Source of the DNA: Spirochaetales bacterium
GTDB lineage: Bacteria > Spirochaetota > Spirochaetia > Treponematales > UBA12059
NCBI GenBank assembly: GCA_016926955.1
Contig: JAFGNN010000012.1
Coordinates: forward strand, 1-33,095
DNA length: 33,095 nt
Reading direction: 5' to 3'
The notes beneath the pieces were generated by a model. That model had not been told where the DNA came from, made no database searches, and was given only the letters and a program-made list of their open reading frames with translations. The translations under genes were made by a program, and so were the position numbers. The stretch's first letter is position 1. Each line of letters begins with the position of its first letter. Shown here in pieces: positions 4,112 to 33,095 of this stretch.

Positions 4112-4605
4112 TCGGCCAATCCCGCCAGCACGAAGGCGAGCTCGCCGCGCCCCAAGTCGGCGATGACGGCCAGGTCGGGCGGCGTCAGGCGCCCTTCCAT
4201 GATTTCGCGCGTCGGCACGCCCTTGGCCAGCCAGAGCTCGCGGCGCTCCGCGTAGTATTCGGGCGCCTCGAACCAGGCCGCCGCCTCGACCGCGCGCGCG
4301 AAGCCGAACCAGTTGTCCTCGGCCACTCGGAAGAGGTGCAGGGCAAAGGCGCGAGACGCCACGACTCCGGACGCGTGCCGGTCCAGGAAAGCCGAGTCGA
4401 GCGCGGCGAGGGTTTCCTCCGGCCACCCGAGCGCGCGCGCCTCGCGCGCGAGCTCCGCGCGCAGGACCTCCGCGTCCTCTACGAGCTCAGGCACGGGCCG
4501 CGCCGGAACCCACGCATGCGCGCTGGCGGGGAAATTCTCCAGCAGCAGCGTTCCCGCGAGCGAAGCGACGAAGGCCTCGGGTCCCCCGCCCGCGCCCTCG
4601 CTCAT
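4108..4605 (-). CDS. Unrecognised 165-residue protein, coupled to the PrcB-like gene
   Basis: The ATG at 4605 overlaps the stop of the upstream PrcB-like gene (ATGA), so the two are probably translationally coupled. The product is Ala-, Glu- and Leu-rich, mostly helical in appearance, with no signal peptide and no membrane segment, so a cytoplasmic protein is expected. I see no catalytic motif I can name; short aromatic stretches (DNWFGFARAVEAAAWF, EYYAERRELW) are the most distinctive parts. Amino-acid use is balanced, with no Arg/Pro/Ser run typical of shadow frames in this DNA, which supports it being real. Function unknown. Confidence 0.65.
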   Translation of the reverse strand: MSEGAGGGPEAFVASLAGTLLLENFPASAHAWVPARPVPELVEDAEVLRAELAREARALGWPEETLAALDSAFLDRHASGVVASRAFALHLFRVAEDNWFGFARAVEAAAWFEAPEYYAERRELWLAKGVPTREIMEGRLTPPDLAVIADLGRGELAFVLAGLAD

Positions 4606-5153
4606 TCGACGAACTCGACGACGACGTCCGCGTCCGGCGCGGCCGGGACCGCGAGCGCGAGGAAGGGGCTCGTGAGCGCCTGGGTCACCATCATGCCGGG
4701 CTTCGGCGCGAGCTTGCGCAGGCGCACAAGGACGGAACCGTCCGCGAGCGATTCGGCGGCGACCAGCTCGATGGAGAAGCCGCCCGTGTTCTTCCGGCCC
4801 ATGAAGGCCGCGACGACGGCTTCGGCGGCGAAGTCGAGCTCGGGCTTGGCGGCGCCGGGCGCCGCTACGGAGGCCCAGAGACCGGCGAATGCGGCGGCGT
4901 TCCGGACGACGCTGACGGAGGGTTCCTCCGCGCGGGCGTTCTGCCCCCGGACCAGGATGCGGGCTTCGAGCGGCACGGCGACCTCCACGGCGGACGCGGA
5001 CGCGGCGGATCCTTCGCCCCCGGCGTATTCCGTGGCGCCCGTGACGGCGCTGACGGCCTCGGGTTCGGGCGTCGCGGCGACGGGCTCAGGCTTTCCGGCG
5101 CAGGAAAGGGCGAGGGCGAGCGCGGCGAGCGTGATGATGATGGATGCTTTCAT
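4602..5153 (-). CDS. PrcB C-terminal-domain-like lipoprotein
   Basis: 183 residues from ATG 5153. The open frame extends back to 5285, but the upstream part is not convincing and 5153 begins a lipoprotein signal (MKAS, hydrophobic core, LALALSC with Cys near residue 18). A low-complexity Ala/Glu/Pro linker (about 20-65) follows. The rest resembles the PrcB_C domain: VVRNAAAFAGLW, AAFMGRKNTGGFSIELV and a late segment MVTQALTSPFLALAVP. In Treponema denticola PrcB is a lipoprotein partner of the dentilisin protease; no protease gene adjoins here, so the partner is unknown. A TATAAT box ends 6 bases before the ATG (see promoter entry). The gene is coupled to the 165-residue gene by overlapping stop and start. 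Confidence 0.75.
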   Translation of the reverse strand: MKASIIITLAALALALSCAGKPEPVAATPEPEAVSAVTGATEYAGGEGSAASASAVEVAVPLEARILVRGQNARAEEPSVSVVRNAAAFAGLWASVAAPGAAKPELDFAAEAVVAAFMGRKNTGGFSIELVAAESLADGSVLVRLRKLAPKPGMMVTQALTSPFLALAVPAAPDADVVVEFVE

Positions 5154-5159
5154 GCGGCG

Positions 5160-5165
5160 ATTATA
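5160..5165 (-). promoter_or_regulatory. Consensus -10 box (TATAAT) 6 bases before the PrcB-like start
   Basis: On the minus strand TATAAT runs 5165-5160 and the ATG begins at 5153. No Shine-Dalgarno lies between, so a leaderless mRNA is suggested. The best -35 candidate at 17-bp spacing (TGGCGT, 5188-5183) is weak. Confidence 0.45.
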
Positions 5166-5232
5166 CGCGCCGTCCGCCGGGAACGCCAGAGCGGAGCGCC
5201 ATCCGGGGGCCGGAGTCGCCGTCCCGCCTGAC

Positions 5233-5292
5233 AAGGCGGGCCCGCCGGGAGAGTCGAAGCGAGCCGGCAGGCGTGCCCGCGCCATTCGTCCC
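5233..5292. repeat. Dispersed repeat B, copy 1
   Basis: About 60 bp. It begins AAGGCGGGCCCGCCGGGA (5233-5250, containing the 12-bp palindrome GGCGGGCCCGCC) and ends GCCCGCGCCATTCGTCCC (5275-5292), with CGAGCCGG in the middle. Both 18-base ends and the 8-base middle recur exactly at 32267-32325. It sits between the azgA terminator and the PrcB-like gene. Confidence 0.8.
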
Positions 5293-5298
5293 GAAATG

Positions 5299-5332
5299 AA
5301 AAAACCCGCGCCCGGGCAATGCCGGACGCGGG
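5299..5332 (-). terminator. Rho-independent terminator of the purine permease gene
   Basis: On the minus strand: CCCGCGTCCGG (5332-5322), a 6-base loop, CCGGGCGCGGG (5315-5305), then six T. The stem is 11 bp with one G-T pair. It starts 20 bases past the permease stop at 5352. Confidence 0.88.
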
Positions 5333-5351
5333 CCGATCGGGGTCGGAAGGA

Positions 5352-6647
5352 TCAGAACCCGAAGACGAACTTGAGGACGAAGAAGGCCGCGACGATCCAG
5401 GTGACGATCGGAATCTGCTTGACCTTACCGGTGACGAGCTTGAGCAGGACGTAGCCGAGGATGCCGAACACGATGCCGTTGGCGATGCTGTAGGTCAGCG
5501 GCATGGCGATCATGGCCAGGAAGGCCGGTATCGACTCGGTCCAGTCGTCGAAGTCGATCTCCTTGATGGGAGACATCATGAAGAGGCCGACGATGATCAG
5601 GGCCGGGGCGGTGGCGGCGCCGGGGATGACGAGGAAGACCGGCGAGAGGAAGAGCGCGAGCCCGAAGAGCACGGCGGTGGTCAGGGCGGTGAGGCCCGTG
5701 CGGCCGCCTTCCTCGACGCCGGAGGCGCTTTCGACATAGGTGGTCACCGTCGAGGTGCCGACGATGGCGCCGAAGGTGGTGCCGACGGCGTCCGCGATCA
5801 GGGCCTGCTTGGCGCGCGGCACCTGGCCGTCCTTGGTCAGCATGCCGGCCTTGGTCGACACGCCGACGAGGGTGCCGATGGTGTCGAACATGTCGACGGC
5901 CAGGAAGCTGAACATGACGATGAGCACCTCGCCGGAGAAGATCTTCGAGAAGTCGAACTTCCAGAAGATGGGCGCAAGGCTTGCGGGCATGGACACGAAG
6001 GTGAAGCCCTCGAGGTTGGTGACGCCGAAGGGAATGCCCACCACCGTGGTGGCGAGGATGCCGATGAGCAGGGCGCCCTTGACCTTGAACGCGAGCAGGG
6101 CGCCGGTGACGACGAGGCCGATGAGGGCGACGAGGGCCGGTCCCTTGGTGACGGCGCCGAGGCCGACGAGGGTGGCGTCGTTGTTGACGACGATGCCGGC
6201 GTTCTGCAGGCCGATGAAGGCGATGAACAGGCCGATGCCGACCGAGAGAGCGCGCTTCAGGTTGAGCGGGATGCTCTTGACGATGGCCTCGCGCACGTTG
6301 AAGAGCGAGAGGAGGAGGAAGATGATGCCTTCCACGAAGACCGCGGTCAGCGCCGTCTGCCAGCTGTAGCCCATGCCGAGGACCACGGAGAAGGCGAAGA
6401 AGGCGTTGAGGCCCATGCCCGGCGCGAGCGCGAAGGGCAGGTTGGCGAAGATGGCCATGACCAGGGTGGCCACGAGCGACGCGAGCGCGGTCGCCGTGAA
6501 GAGCGCGCCCTTGTCCATGCCGGTGGCGGACAGGATGCCGGGGTTGACGGCCAGGATGTAGGCCATCGTCATGAACGTCGTGATGCCCGCGAGGATCTCG
6601 GTCTTGACCGTGGTCCCGTTTTCCTTGAGCTTGAAGAACTTCTCCAC
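5352..6647 (-). CDS. AzgA-type purine (adenine/guanine/hypoxanthine) permease
   Basis: 431 residues from GTG 6647, chosen because AAGGAGGC (6660-6653) lies 5 bases upstream and the N-terminus then reads VEKFFKLKENGTTVKTEILAGITTFMTMAYI, the normal opening of the AzgA branch of the NCS2 family (GhxP, GhxQ, PurP, PurT in E. coli). The body is a hydrophobic multi-span protein with family-typical segments such as ALAPGMGLNAFF and, later, GTSTVTTYVESASGVEEGGRTGL. These are H+-coupled importers of hypoxanthine, guanine or adenine; which base cannot be told from sequence alone. The adjacent divergent adenine deaminase makes adenine or hypoxanthine likely. A strong intrinsic terminator follows. Confidence 0.92.
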   Translation of the reverse strand: MEKFFKLKENGTTVKTEILAGITTFMTMAYILAVNPGILSATGMDKGALFTATALASLVATLVMAIFANLPFALAPGMGLNAFFAFSVVLGMGYSWQTALTAVFVEGIIFLLLSLFNVREAIVKSIPLNLKRALSVGIGLFIAFIGLQNAGIVVNNDATLVGLGAVTKGPALVALIGLVVTGALLAFKVKGALLIGILATTVVGIPFGVTNLEGFTFVSMPASLAPIFWKFDFSKIFSGEVLIVMFSFLAVDMFDTIGTLVGVSTKAGMLTKDGQVPRAKQALIADAVGTTFGAIVGTSTVTTYVESASGVEEGGRTGLTALTTAVLFGLALFLSPVFLVIPGAATAPALIIVGLFMMSPIKEIDFDDWTESIPAFLAMIAMPLTYSIANGIVFGILGYVLLKLVTGKVKQIPIVTWIVAAFFVLKFVFGF

Positions 6648-27663: not shown

Positions 27664-27793
27664 ACCACGTAGGCACGGAGTTTTTGAGGGAAGAGGGAGG
27701 AAGACGGGAGAGGGAATCGTGGTTCATTCCACTCGATCCATTCTTCTCCCTCTTATCTCCCTATCTCCGTGTCTCCGTGGTAGATATTCATGC
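27664..27793. repeat. Repeat A, copy 1 (inverted-repeat element before ygeW)
   Basis: The terminal inverted repeats are ACCACGTAGGCACGGAG at 27664-27680 and, reading the minus strand from 27781, ACCACGGAGACACGGAG (15 of 17 match). The left half is almost all purine, the right half almost all pyrimidine, so the whole can fold as one long imperfect hairpin. A conserved tail, GATATTC(A/C)TGC, follows the right end (to 27793) and is shared with copy 2. Confidence 0.85.
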
Positions 27794-29011: not shown

Positions 29012-29158
29012 AACCACGGAGACACGGAGATAAGGAGGAAAGAAGGAGGGGGAAGAAGGATCAGGGAAATGGAAAGTTTCCATTTTTGCCTCAATCCTGT
29101 TCCCTCTCAGCTCCCTCCAGCCTCCGTGTCTCCGTGCCTCCGTGGTTGATATTCCTGC
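29012..29158. repeat. Repeat A, copy 2 (inverted-repeat element between ygeW and the permease)
   Basis: The left arm begins AACCACGGAGACACGGAG at 29012. The right arm, read from 29147 on the minus strand, begins AACCACGGAGGCACGGAG. The left half is purine-rich and the right half pyrimidine-rich. The centre is a perfect small hairpin, AAATGGAAA-G-TTTCCATTT (29067-29085). The tail GATATTCCTGC (29148-29158) runs directly into the permease ATG at 29159. Confidence 0.87.
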
Positions 29159-30199: not shown

Positions 30200-30354
30200 A
30201 ACCACAGAGGCACGGAGACACAGAGGGAAGAGGGAGAAGAACAGGGAGAGGAAGGAGACAGGATATCCGGAGAAATTGTCGCAAGACAGGACATCCCGAA
30301 ATTCTTGCCTTTCACTCCTCCCTCTTCTCTCCCCTTCTCCGTGTCTCCGTGGTT
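30200..30354. repeat. Repeat A, copy 3 (between convergent permease and HAD genes)
   Basis: The left arm AACCACAGAGGCACGGAG begins at 30200 (7 bases past the permease stop); the right arm, from 30354 on the minus strand, begins AACCACGGAGACACGGAG. Purine-rich left half, pyrimidine-rich right half. The centre carries a 13-base direct repeat with one mismatch (AGACAGGATATCC at 30256, AGACAGGACATCC at 30284). It could act as a bidirectional terminator. Confidence 0.85.
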
Positions 30355-31077: not shown

Positions 31078-31117
31078 GGATGAAGACCGCTCCGGACGCG
31101 AGGAGGATTCGCCCTCA

Positions 31118-32215
31118 TCATGCCATGGAAGGCTCCCGAAAATCCAGCGTCTCCGTCCGGGCCCGCCTCGGACCCCGGCCCAGGGAGGACAGGCTCAGTC
31201 GCGCGTTCCCGTCAATCCGGATCGAGCCCGGCGTACGCGCGGACGCGCTCGTCGACGCGGCGCGCGAGCGAGCGCGTGTAGGCCTCGAAACGCCCTTCCC
31301 AGAGGGGGCGGCGGGACGGTTGAGCGTCTCGTAGTCGACGCCGAGGAGCGGAACGTCCGCGCGGGCGCAGAAGGCGAAGGCCGCGTCCACCAGGGCGCGG
31401 GCGACGCCCCGCCCGCGCGCGGACGGGGTGACGTAGAGGCCCTGGATGTTGCGCACGCAATCGAGGCTCGAGGCGAAGTTCTCGGCGGGGCTACCGAGCC
31501 GGATGAAGCCGAGCGGCAGCTCGCCGGCAAGCGCGACCAACTCGGAGCGACGCGGGTCGCCGATCCATTCCAGGAATTCCGCCGCCGGGTCCTCGTCGGG
31601 GTGGAACATGAAGAGCGGAGAGCGGCGGTAGAACTCGTTGTGGGCCCGGTGGAGCGGCGCGAGCGCCGCGGCGTGCCCCGCGTCCGCCTCGACGATACGC
31701 ACGCCTTCAGGCGGCCCGGCCTCGGGCGCGGAATCGGGCACGGCGCGCATGGCGTCGGCGCAGCGCATGCCGAAGCCGTTGCGGAACCAGGCCTCGATGA
31801 TCGCTTCGTCGTGGGCGTAGGCGGTGACCGTGTGCGAAAGCAGGCCGTCGCGGACCCAGGACGCCGCCGCGCGCTCGTAGAGCGAAAGCACGAGGCCGGC
31901 GCCGAAGCGGCCGGCGCGCGCGTGGCCGTGGAGCGGCACGTGGACGCCCCCGCATTCGCCGAAGTGGGACGCGACGGGATAGCCCGCGAGGTACCCGACC
32001 AGGGCGTCGCCCGAAAAGGCCGCGATGCCGCGACCGCGCGAGAAGAGCCCCTCGAGGCGGGCGCGCAGGGCCGCGGCAGCCCCTTCGGTCGGCAGGCAGG
32101 GCACGGCCGCTCGCTCGGCATCGTAGGCGGCCAGGGCGAGCGGCAGGGCCGCCTCGATGAAGGAGGGGGCGTCGGTCGGGAGGCCAACGAATCGGAGCGG
32201 GGCGGGCGGGCTCAT
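31118..32215 (-). CDS. Double-GNAT acetyltransferase with an apparent frameshift near its C-terminus
   Basis: The open frame from ATG 32215 encodes two GNAT-like halves: an N-terminal one (about 1-160: GDALVGYLAGYP, HGHARAGRFGAGLVLSLYERAA) and a C-terminal one with the acetyl-CoA loop GLYVTPSARGRGVARALVDAAFAFC. Near 31304-31308 the frame is lost: after VDYETLNRPAA the read frame becomes an Arg/Ser/Ala-rich tail to 31118, while the neighbouring frame gives a sensible ending, LWEGRFEAYTRSLARRVDERVR, stopping at 31212. One extra G in the plus-strand G5 run would restore it. The intended product is therefore about 334 residues. The substrate is unknown. A TATCAT box lies 7 bases before the ATG and there is no RBS. 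An alternative ATG at 32224 would add three residues. Confidence 0.8.
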   Translation of the reverse strand: MSPPAPLRFVGLPTDAPSFIEAALPLALAAYDAERAAVPCLPTEGAAAALRARLEGLFSRGRGIAAFSGDALVGYLAGYPVASHFGECGGVHVPLHGHARAGRFGAGLVLSLYERAAASWVRDGLLSHTVTAYAHDEAIIEAWFRNGFGMRCADAMRAVPDSAPEAGPPEGVRIVEADAGHAAALAPLHRAHNEFYRRSPLFMFHPDEDPAAEFLEWIGDPRRSELVALAGELPLGFIRLGSPAENFASSLDCVRNIQGLYVTPSARGRGVARALVDAAFAFCARADVPLLGVDYETLNRPAAPSGKGVSRPTRARSRAASTSASARTPGSIRIDGNARLSLSSLGRGPRRARTETLDFREPSMA

Positions 32216-32222
32216 GGGGAGC

Positions 32223-32228
32223 ATGATA
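32223..32228 (-). promoter_or_regulatory. TATCAT -10-like box 7 bases before the GNAT start
   Basis: On the minus strand TATCAT occupies 32228-32223 and the ATG follows at 32215 with no Shine-Dalgarno. No good -35 box is seen. This is a third case of a -10-like box close to a start codon in this window. Confidence 0.3.
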
Positions 32229-32266
32229 GCACGGCCCCCGCGGGGACCGGAGGCGGCGCGAAGGGG

Positions 32267-32325
32267 AAGGCGGGCCCGCCGGGAAGGTTCCGCGAGCCGG
32301 GGACGAAGCCCGCGCCATTCGTCCC
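32267..32325. repeat. Dispersed repeat B, copy 2
   Basis: The same 18-base ends as the copy at 5233 (32267-32284 and 32308-32325) and the same CGAGCCGG core, with a 23-base instead of 24-base middle. It lies 5 bases past the 3' end of the cyclase-like gene, before the GNAT gene, in the same orientation relative to minus-strand genes as copy 1. Confidence 0.8.
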
Positions 32326-32330
32326 CGACG

Positions 32331-33095
32331 TCAGCCCTTCATGGCGGGGACGATCAGGCGCACCTCGTCGTAGTCCTCATCGCGGAGGCCTTCGAGGCTG
32401 GCCCGCGCCGGTTTCCTCGCGGGGTCGAGGAGGGGCCAGCCGGCTCCGACGGCCGCGGCGAGCTGCCGGCCGGACACGAGTTCGCCGGGGCCGGCCATCT
32501 TCTGGAGGCGGAAGATGGAGTTGACCGCGTAGCTGACGTAGTCGCGGTACTTGAGGCCGGAGCACTCGGCGTTGATCTCGTACTTGTAGACCTCGCCGAC
32601 GTTGAGGGCACCCGCGACGTTGAGCTTGTAGCCGTAGCCCGGGCCGATCTCGGCGACCACCTGGCGCAGGATGCGGAAGAGCTCGATGGCGGCTTCGTGC
32701 TGGCCCTCGGCCGGATCGTCCCAGACGAGCATGGCGCCGTCGCCGAGCAGCTTGTAGTAGCTCACGCCCATGCCGGTGGCGGCGGCGAGGAGCTCCTGCG
32801 AGTACTTCTCGAGGAAGCCCGTGACCGCCTCGGTGCCGGCCTCGAGGGCGAAGCTGGAGAAGCGGCGGAGGTCGAGGCAGAGGATCAGGGCCTTGAGGCT
32901 GCGCTTGTCGTAGCTGCCGTCCTTGAGGCTGATTGGCGTGCGCTCCATCTCGCGCACCACCGCCGGGTCGAGCTCGATGGTGTCGACGTCGACCGAGGCG
33001 AGCTCGTAGCCGTCGAGGACCGCGCCGGCCAGCTCGCGGATGGTCTCGTCGACGGAGCGCTCGGCGGAGAAAGGCACGCGGCGGCCCTTCGAGTC
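32331..33095 (-). CDS. Class III adenylate/guanylate-cyclase-like protein (probably runs off right edge)
   Basis: A possible GTG start at 33077 gives 248 residues, but the frame stays open to the window end (33095) and no RBS is visible, so the true start is probably outside. Residues below count from 33077. The class III cyclase homology region is visible: LILCLDLRRFSSF with Asp69, then YYKLLGDGAMLVWDDP with Asp113, the two usual metal-binding aspartates. Later GALNVGEVYKYEI and RDYVSYAVNSIFRLQKMA match the end of the fold (where canonical enzymes have a G.(A)VN.AARL pattern). About 60 residues precede the catalytic region. It may make cAMP or cGMP, or be a degenerate sensor; purine- and substrate-specifying residues cannot be judged reliably by eye. 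Confidence 0.75.
   Translation of the reverse strand, partial: DSKGRRVPFSAERSVDETIRELAGAVLDGYELASVDVDTIELDPAVVREMERTPISLKDGSYDKRSLKALILCLDLRRFSSFALEAGTEAVTGFLEKYSQELLAAATGMGVSYYKLLGDGAMLVWDDPAEGQHEAAIELFRILRQVVAEIGPGYGYKLNVAGALNVGEVYKYEINAECSGLKYRDYVSYAVNSIFRLQKMAGPGELVSGRQLAAAVGAGWPLLDPARKPARASLEGLRDEDYDEVRLIVPAMKG

Follow-up and report, generated by a model that had tools for sequence, protein, structure and literature searches.

Two segments of a 33,095-nucleotide stretch of DNA from a Spirochaetales bacterium (contig JAFGNN010000012.1; the whole stretch is called the window) are the 3' two-thirds, i.e., the conserved cores, of a noncoding element of ~90-110 bp. This element, repeat B, is restricted to one spirochaete genus among the genomes searched. 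On balance, we lean towards the view that repeat B is a short, noncoding, non-autonomous dispersed family, which would have multiplied in the ancestor of this genus and would afterwards have been inherited mostly in place, with occasional later gains. The family could have spread by copying into intergenic DNA with the help of an enzyme supplied in trans. The REP-type Y1 transposases of the same genome are unproven candidates for this enzyme, and the conserved core with its CGGGC and GCCCG arms may be the part that is recognised, either as a single-stranded fold or as a DNA site. Repeat B is probably an old non-autonomous mobile element, copies of which were possibly co-opted by the host. To our knowledge, small dispersed repeats are poorly catalogued outside the well-studied phyla. 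The finding is otherwise of an ordinary kind; however, as shared and empty sites can be compared among three related genomes, and as the family has a conserved core and an apparent nested insertion, it can be tested how such elements spread and why some persist.

Anatomy of the element

In the initial annotation, repeat B was described as two segments of the window, positions 5233-5292 (60 bases) and 32267-32325 (59 bases), which share 18-base ends and a core of 8 bases. The ends are indeed identical, and a common core exists, which comprises 9 bases (GCGAGCCGG) rather than 8. The palindrome GGCGGGCCCGCC is present in both segments (5235-5246 and 32269-32280), but does not qualify as a hallmark of the family, as only 11 of 42 copies have it. 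Both copies have the same orientation and are each located between two minus-strand genes (Table 1). The likeness of the two segments goes beyond chance, as had been proposed: further matches in the genome are copies of one longer element. In the 3.38 Mb of the own-genome assembly, exact matches of the 18-mer AAGGCGGGCCCGCCGGGA are found only at the two window sites, and CCCGCGCCATTCGTCCC has two additional exact matches and another match with a single mismatch, all of which are copies of the longer element.

An alignment of six copies, namely the window pair, the two exact matches, the single-mismatch match and one locus with two mismatches per end, revealed that the similarity spans approximately GCGGGGACTGGAGG to ATTCGTCCCC with a mean column identity of 81%. 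The segments had been drawn too short, with the similarity starting ~25-44 bases further 5'; the sequence-only model R1, which was built from the six copies (alignment A2), starts at 5205 and 32242, and the model R2, which was built from 28 copies (alignment A5), starts at 5189 and 32226. Conservation over 28 copies is highest in the blocks CGGGC, GCGAGC and GAAGCCCG, and GCCCG, the pairing partner of CGGGC, is likewise near-invariant. The subfamilies diverge in their outer parts: copies of the B type start with ~GCGGGGACTGGAG and end with CCATTCGTCCCC, and the ends of the other subfamilies are TTCGCCTTC..CCCC or GGCATGATTC..CCCC. GGGGAC opens most copies of the B subfamily and is not kept in the other subfamilies, and GGGGAC...GTCCCC, a possible terminal inverted repeat, was seen in B-subfamily copies only.

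Table 1. Repeat B copies in the window and their neighbours.
Feature	Position	Strand	Evidence and remarks
Repeat B copy 1, R2 extent	5189..5300	+	R2 67.9 bits; R3 48.1 bits
Copy 1, best conserved part	5205-5292	+	R1 61.9 bits, E 2.0e-16
Copy 1, core	5236..5280	+	arms GCGGGC 5236-5241 and GCCCGC 5275-5280, enclosing GAAGCGAGC motif
Repeat B copy 2, R2 extent	32226..32333	+	R2 85.8 bits; R3 66.3 bits
Copy 2, best conserved part	32242-32325	+	R1 71 bits, E 3.0e-19
Copy 2, core	32270..32313	+	arms GCGGGC 32270-32275 and GCCCGC 32308-32313
Terminator-like hairpin and T-run, downstream of permease gene	5303..5334	-	neighbour, outside element
Xanthine/uracil permease family gene	5352..6647	-	Pfam PF00860, E 2e-47; flanks copy 1
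PrcB-like lipoprotein gene	4602..5153	-	Pfam PF14343, E 1.6e-12; flanks copy 1
GNAT acetyltransferase gene	31118..32224	-	Pfam PF00583, E 5.7e-10; flanks copy 2
Gene	32331..33077	-	no Pfam match, no NCBIfam match over cut-off; flanks copy 2

Distribution across genomes

The three genomes of the genus are assembled in 94, 20 and 530 contigs, and two of them are metagenome assemblies. With R1 and E-values up to 0.001, 11 copies were found in the genome of the window and 12 and 10 in the two other genomes of the genus; beyond the genus, the remaining 36 of the 39 genomes searched yielded a single marginal match (G012, E 7.2e-4), which was not recovered by R2 or by R3, a model from 46 matches (alignment A6). 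R2, whose training set omitted six of 34 copies (L065, L070, L068, L080, L052 and L045), detected 15, 16 and 9 copies in the three genomes and none in the other 20 of 23 genomes of the family. R3 detected 18 copies in the own genome and 20 and 11 in the two sister species (G001 and G002), and one marginal match in the other 20 of the 23 family genomes (G018, E 1.2e-4, 47 bases), which was given by R3 alone. The searches support repeat B as a genuine dispersed family, separate from other repeats, and the two copies reported initially become ~18 in the genome of the window.

Only two copies, which arose by a recent local duplication, had been named as the finding that would speak against such a family. 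The exact 18-mer, present at two places of the window only, agrees with this explanation; however, it is refuted by the 18 copies on many contigs, and both window copies moreover have a relative at the corresponding place in a sister species.

The genome_contigs collection (84,980 species) was also scanned with a pattern of the core in which 21 bases are specified; this pattern is strict enough that diverged relatives elsewhere could escape it. The scan gave four stretches in two 'Spirochaetes bacterium' metagenome-assembled genomes, RA.bin126 and QR_Bin.15, which are the sister genomes G002 and G001. No phage or plasmid match to copy 2 was found. Viral carriage was rejected: 17 of 18 IMG/VR pattern loci have no CGGGC arm within 30 bases upstream, and the remaining locus (L098) has this arm and no further likeness by eye. 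No paper was recognised as describing repeat B in the literature search, and its undescribed status refers to absence from this search only.

Placement relative to genes

In 33 of 34 mapped copies, the core lies outside the genes predicted by a codon-usage script, which works without start-site evidence. The exception is L072, where the core is located within an ORF call of 2175 bases; this call is probably extended too far, because the next gene starts 263 bases past the core at the related loci L067 and L050. The copy at L068 overlaps a predicted gene end by 25 bases. The genes flanking the own-genome loci L144-L158 are encoded on the same strand (seven loci), divergently (four) or convergently (three), and L157 is ambiguous; the neighbours of L157 and of the L149/L163 pair vary between calls or orthologs. 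With flanking genes in all relative orientations, the role in 3'-end processing or regulation at which the initial annotation hinted is not supported by position. The terminator-like hairpin of the minus-strand permease gene (5334-5303) adjoins copy 1, as noted before; it is a hairpin separate from the repeat, and no terminator-like hairpin adjoining copy 2 was found. A sigma-70-like promoter was found neither in window 5100-5400 nor in 32150-32400. The PrcB-like gene beside copy 1 reached 75.6 bits against NF033596, under the cut-off of 125, and its lipoprotein signal was judged by eye. Repeat B copies form an inverted pair at G000:C47, in the own genome, and at G002:C522. A replication-strand bias was rejected: when read in the orientation of the element, the local GC skew is positive at 9 of the 15 own-genome loci, which is no signal.

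Inheritance in place

For the comparison between species, 15 stretches from the own genome, 17 from G001 and 10 from G002 were fetched, which correspond to 17 of 18, 18 of 20 and, by contig, all 11 R3 matches. Each of the 15 own-genome stretches aligns over at least 1 kb with a sister-species stretch that also has a copy. Within the 15 own-genome groups, the best partner element is 75-95% identical, and the mean element identity is 78% for 29 ortholog pairs and 56% for 637 paralog pairs. Over 14 ortholog pairs, the identity amounts to 84% within the element (1543 positions) and to 64% in the adjacent noncoding flanks (1538 positions); some of these flanks comprise fewer than 40 bases, and the edges of the element are those given by the model. 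The value of 84% is slightly low, as the wrong members of an inverted doublet were used for L152/L180 (65%; the right pairing gives 95%), and the flanks of this pair do not count, which leaves 13 validly paired loci. At L145/L161, both flanks are at or under the shuffled identity level, and in three of the 13 valid pairs (L149, L155 and L156), one flank is at least as conserved as the element. The excess conservation may reflect that some copies were co-opted by the host or were homogenised by gene conversion. For 8 of the 29 ortholog pairs, the best paralog is at least as close as the partner, in agreement with some exchange among copies or with mismatched copies; at least two of these eight pairs are mismatched or truncated copies. 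Conservation in place is equally compatible with a host function and with a mobile origin.

In G002, the GNAT gene and copy 2 (window 31080-32332) are absent as a unit, with 12 bases in place of ~1.25 kb, and the region upstream of the PrcB-like gene differs from the window.

Occupied and empty sites

Four of the 17 G001 stretches (L166, L167, L173 and L175) have no partner in the own genome or in G002. Presence or absence was examined at two of them, L166 and L167, and the matching sites of both sister genomes are element-free in both cases, which argues that copies were also gained. R3 gave no match below E 0.1 at the empty-site loci L186, L187, L196 and L197. At L167, G001 has ~140 bases including the element, in whose place the own genome and G002 have 8-9 bases between the same genes. 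The pooled identity is 88.5% for G001 and G002 and 86.4% and 86.5% for the other pairs. As these two are thus the nearest relatives by pooled identity, although they are closest to each other at only 5 of 8 loci, an insertion in G001 is the shorter story for L167; alternatively, deletions in the other two species or a larger rearrangement may have taken place. The left edge of the extra DNA (GGGAACGCCCGCGGGGAC) is common to the copy at L166, which suggests that it is a true boundary of the element. On the right, the extra DNA continues for ~45 bases 3' of the element, and these bases are not shared by the family. No obvious target-site duplication was found at L167, the sole clean site that was aligned.

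At L166, a further repeat appears to interrupt the G001 copy, and the site is occupied by a different palindromic repeat in the other two species. The interrupting sequence seems to be the dispersed repeat GATGGGCGCCC...CACGGGTACGTCA (G001:C11, ~404.4 kb), which also adjoins another repeat B copy at L146 (G000:C65, ~20.97-21.05 kb). The element in the other two species is similar to an inverted-repeat element, ACCACGGAGACACGGAG...CTCCGTGTCTCCGTGGT, that has three gene-gap copies in the window (27664-27781, 29013-29146 and 30201-30353) and is perhaps the repeat A of the initial annotation. L167 contains another repeat (~6045-6197), which has numerous matches in the own genome and in G002, on both strands. 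At L168 in G001, a palindromic repeat, CACAAAGGCAC...GTGCCTTTGTG, adjoins the 3' side of the copy-1 relative, which is not the case for copy 1 in the window.

The conservation of copies in place, together with the near-invariant short blocks CGGGC, GCGAGC and GCCCG, would also agree with a double-stranded DNA site that binds a chromosome-organising or regulatory protein at fixed places. However, at ~90-110 bp the element is long for a protein-binding site, one copy appears to be a gain of a single species and the local GC skew has no strand pattern, so that we regard this explanation as highly improbable.

Pairing of the core and the RNA reading

The CGGGC/GCCCG stem (stem 1) is paired in 97-99% of the cells, with 97% in the unfitted alignment A4, and one of its column pairs shows a G-C to C-G exchange in 4 of 28 rows of A4 and in 7 of 45 rows of A6. 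For the two inner hairpins, pairing in A4 amounts to 71% and 65% of the cells. Compared to 500 shuffles of A4, the number of paired cells was reached by 12 and the covariation score by 28; nine cells are changed on both sides versus 6.6 in the shuffles, 115 of which are as high. RNAalifold applied to A4 kept stem 1 only. In the model-fitted A6, an alignment that leans to the structure, 42 cells are changed on both sides compared to 19.7 after shuffling, and none of 500 shuffles is as high. G-U cells hardly exceed A-C cells (39 versus 29 in A4, 60 versus 38 in A6), and hence no strand is clearly singled out. The folding energies of 42 copies, each compared to 60 dinucleotide shuffles, equal those of the shuffles (mean z of +0.16 for one strand and +0.05 for the other), and a thermodynamically stable hairpin was rejected. 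Rfam 15 gave no matches at gathering for the window, and four weak matches, none over the element, for six loci at E-values up to 5.

A conserved pairing of the core arms is plausible, and a stable RNA fold of the element is unproven. Repeat B might be a multi-copy structured RNA or motif of the genus, in which the CGGGC/GCCCG stem closes a junction with two short hairpins and a conserved loop, GAAGCGAGCUGG. Stem 1 with its exchange on both sides, the changes in A6 that exceed all shuffles and the element being on average conserved better than its flanks are in line with this idea. However, the excess is slight in the unfitted alignment, where RNAalifold retains one stem, the energies are at shuffle level on both strands, G-U is barely above A-C, and neither an Rfam match over the element, a consistent position relative to genes nor a sigma-70-like promoter near either window copy was found; we therefore consider a structured RNA rather unlikely. 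It is somewhat less likely still that repeat B is a multi-copy motif of RNA or single-stranded DNA specific to the genus, in which CGGGC/GCCCG closes a three-way junction with the conserved GAAGCGAGCUGG loop, and which is dispersed in the manner of a mobile element while selection holds it in place at more than 12 unrelated loci. If true, such a motif would be a mobile repeat turned into a regulatory part of the host.

Comparison with known repeat systems

Integron attC sites are characterised by GTTRRRY and RYYYAAC boxes. Neither box is present on the plus strand of the two window copies, and, as the boxes are reverse-complementary to each other, both strands are covered; an attC site was rejected as an explanation for repeat B.

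Three Y1 transposase genes are encoded in the own genome, with NF047646 (REP-associated tyrosine transposase) as the best NCBIfam match, which is over the cut-off for one of the three. No repeat B copy was found beside these genes in the loci L041-L043 (3.2-3.3 kb), where the best match (E 0.011, L043 2160-2241) is inside another ORF. In REP/RAYT and TIR/TIRYT pairs, the copies flank the transposase gene in inverted orientation. As no copy was found beside the genes of the own genome, a linkage of repeat B to the REP-type transposases was rejected, and we do not assign the element to either system; it may work like them. GGGGACAG tracts are present upstream of two of the three Y1 genes, and in L041 and L042, the REP-type tyrosine transposase genes are preceded by several (G)GGGACAGA/C tracts. 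One table of PMC12306157 contains three Spirochaetota species.

REPs (repetitive extragenic palindromes, with the GTAG and CGTC super-families) are described as palindromic sequences of 20-40 bp tagged with GTAG or CGTC, and a GGGGWSAS motif is reported in the terminal repeats of REP-associated tyrosine transposase genes (PMC3733652). Like REPs, repeat B is short, extragenic, multi-copy and confined to a narrow group, and it has one inverted pair. However, it is ~90-110 bp long and, in contrast to the stable REP hairpin, folds no better than shuffled sequence, and the CGTC within its TTCGTCCCC end does not mark the base of a conserved stem of 8-9 bp. The likeness to the TIRs of TIRYT/RAYT genes consists of the three genes in the genome and the GGGGAC start of most B-subfamily copies; GGGGWSAS is only partly matched, mostly by GGGGACT or GGGGACC and by GGGGACAG in the L166 copy, and no copy was found beside the three own-genome genes. 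A REP- or TIR-type element moved by the REP-associated tyrosine transposases of the genome would be in agreement with the presence of these genes, the GGGGAC start and the tracts upstream of two of them. We nevertheless judge it improbable: no copy was found beside any of the three Y1 genes, no fold exceeds the shuffles, GGGGAC is not kept in the other subfamilies and there are 11-20 copies per genome, whereas REPs usually exceed 100 copies (PMC2817692).

The RU-type intergenic repeats of enterobacteria are described as small mobile sequences of 103-168 bp (PMC2759123). Repeat B differs from MITEs and RU elements in that neither long terminal inverted repeats nor a target-site duplication was found. 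It resembles them in its similar size, in being intergenic, noncoding and dispersed and in its presence or absence between relatives. Repeat B looks like one more of the small dispersed repeats that are carried by many bacteria.
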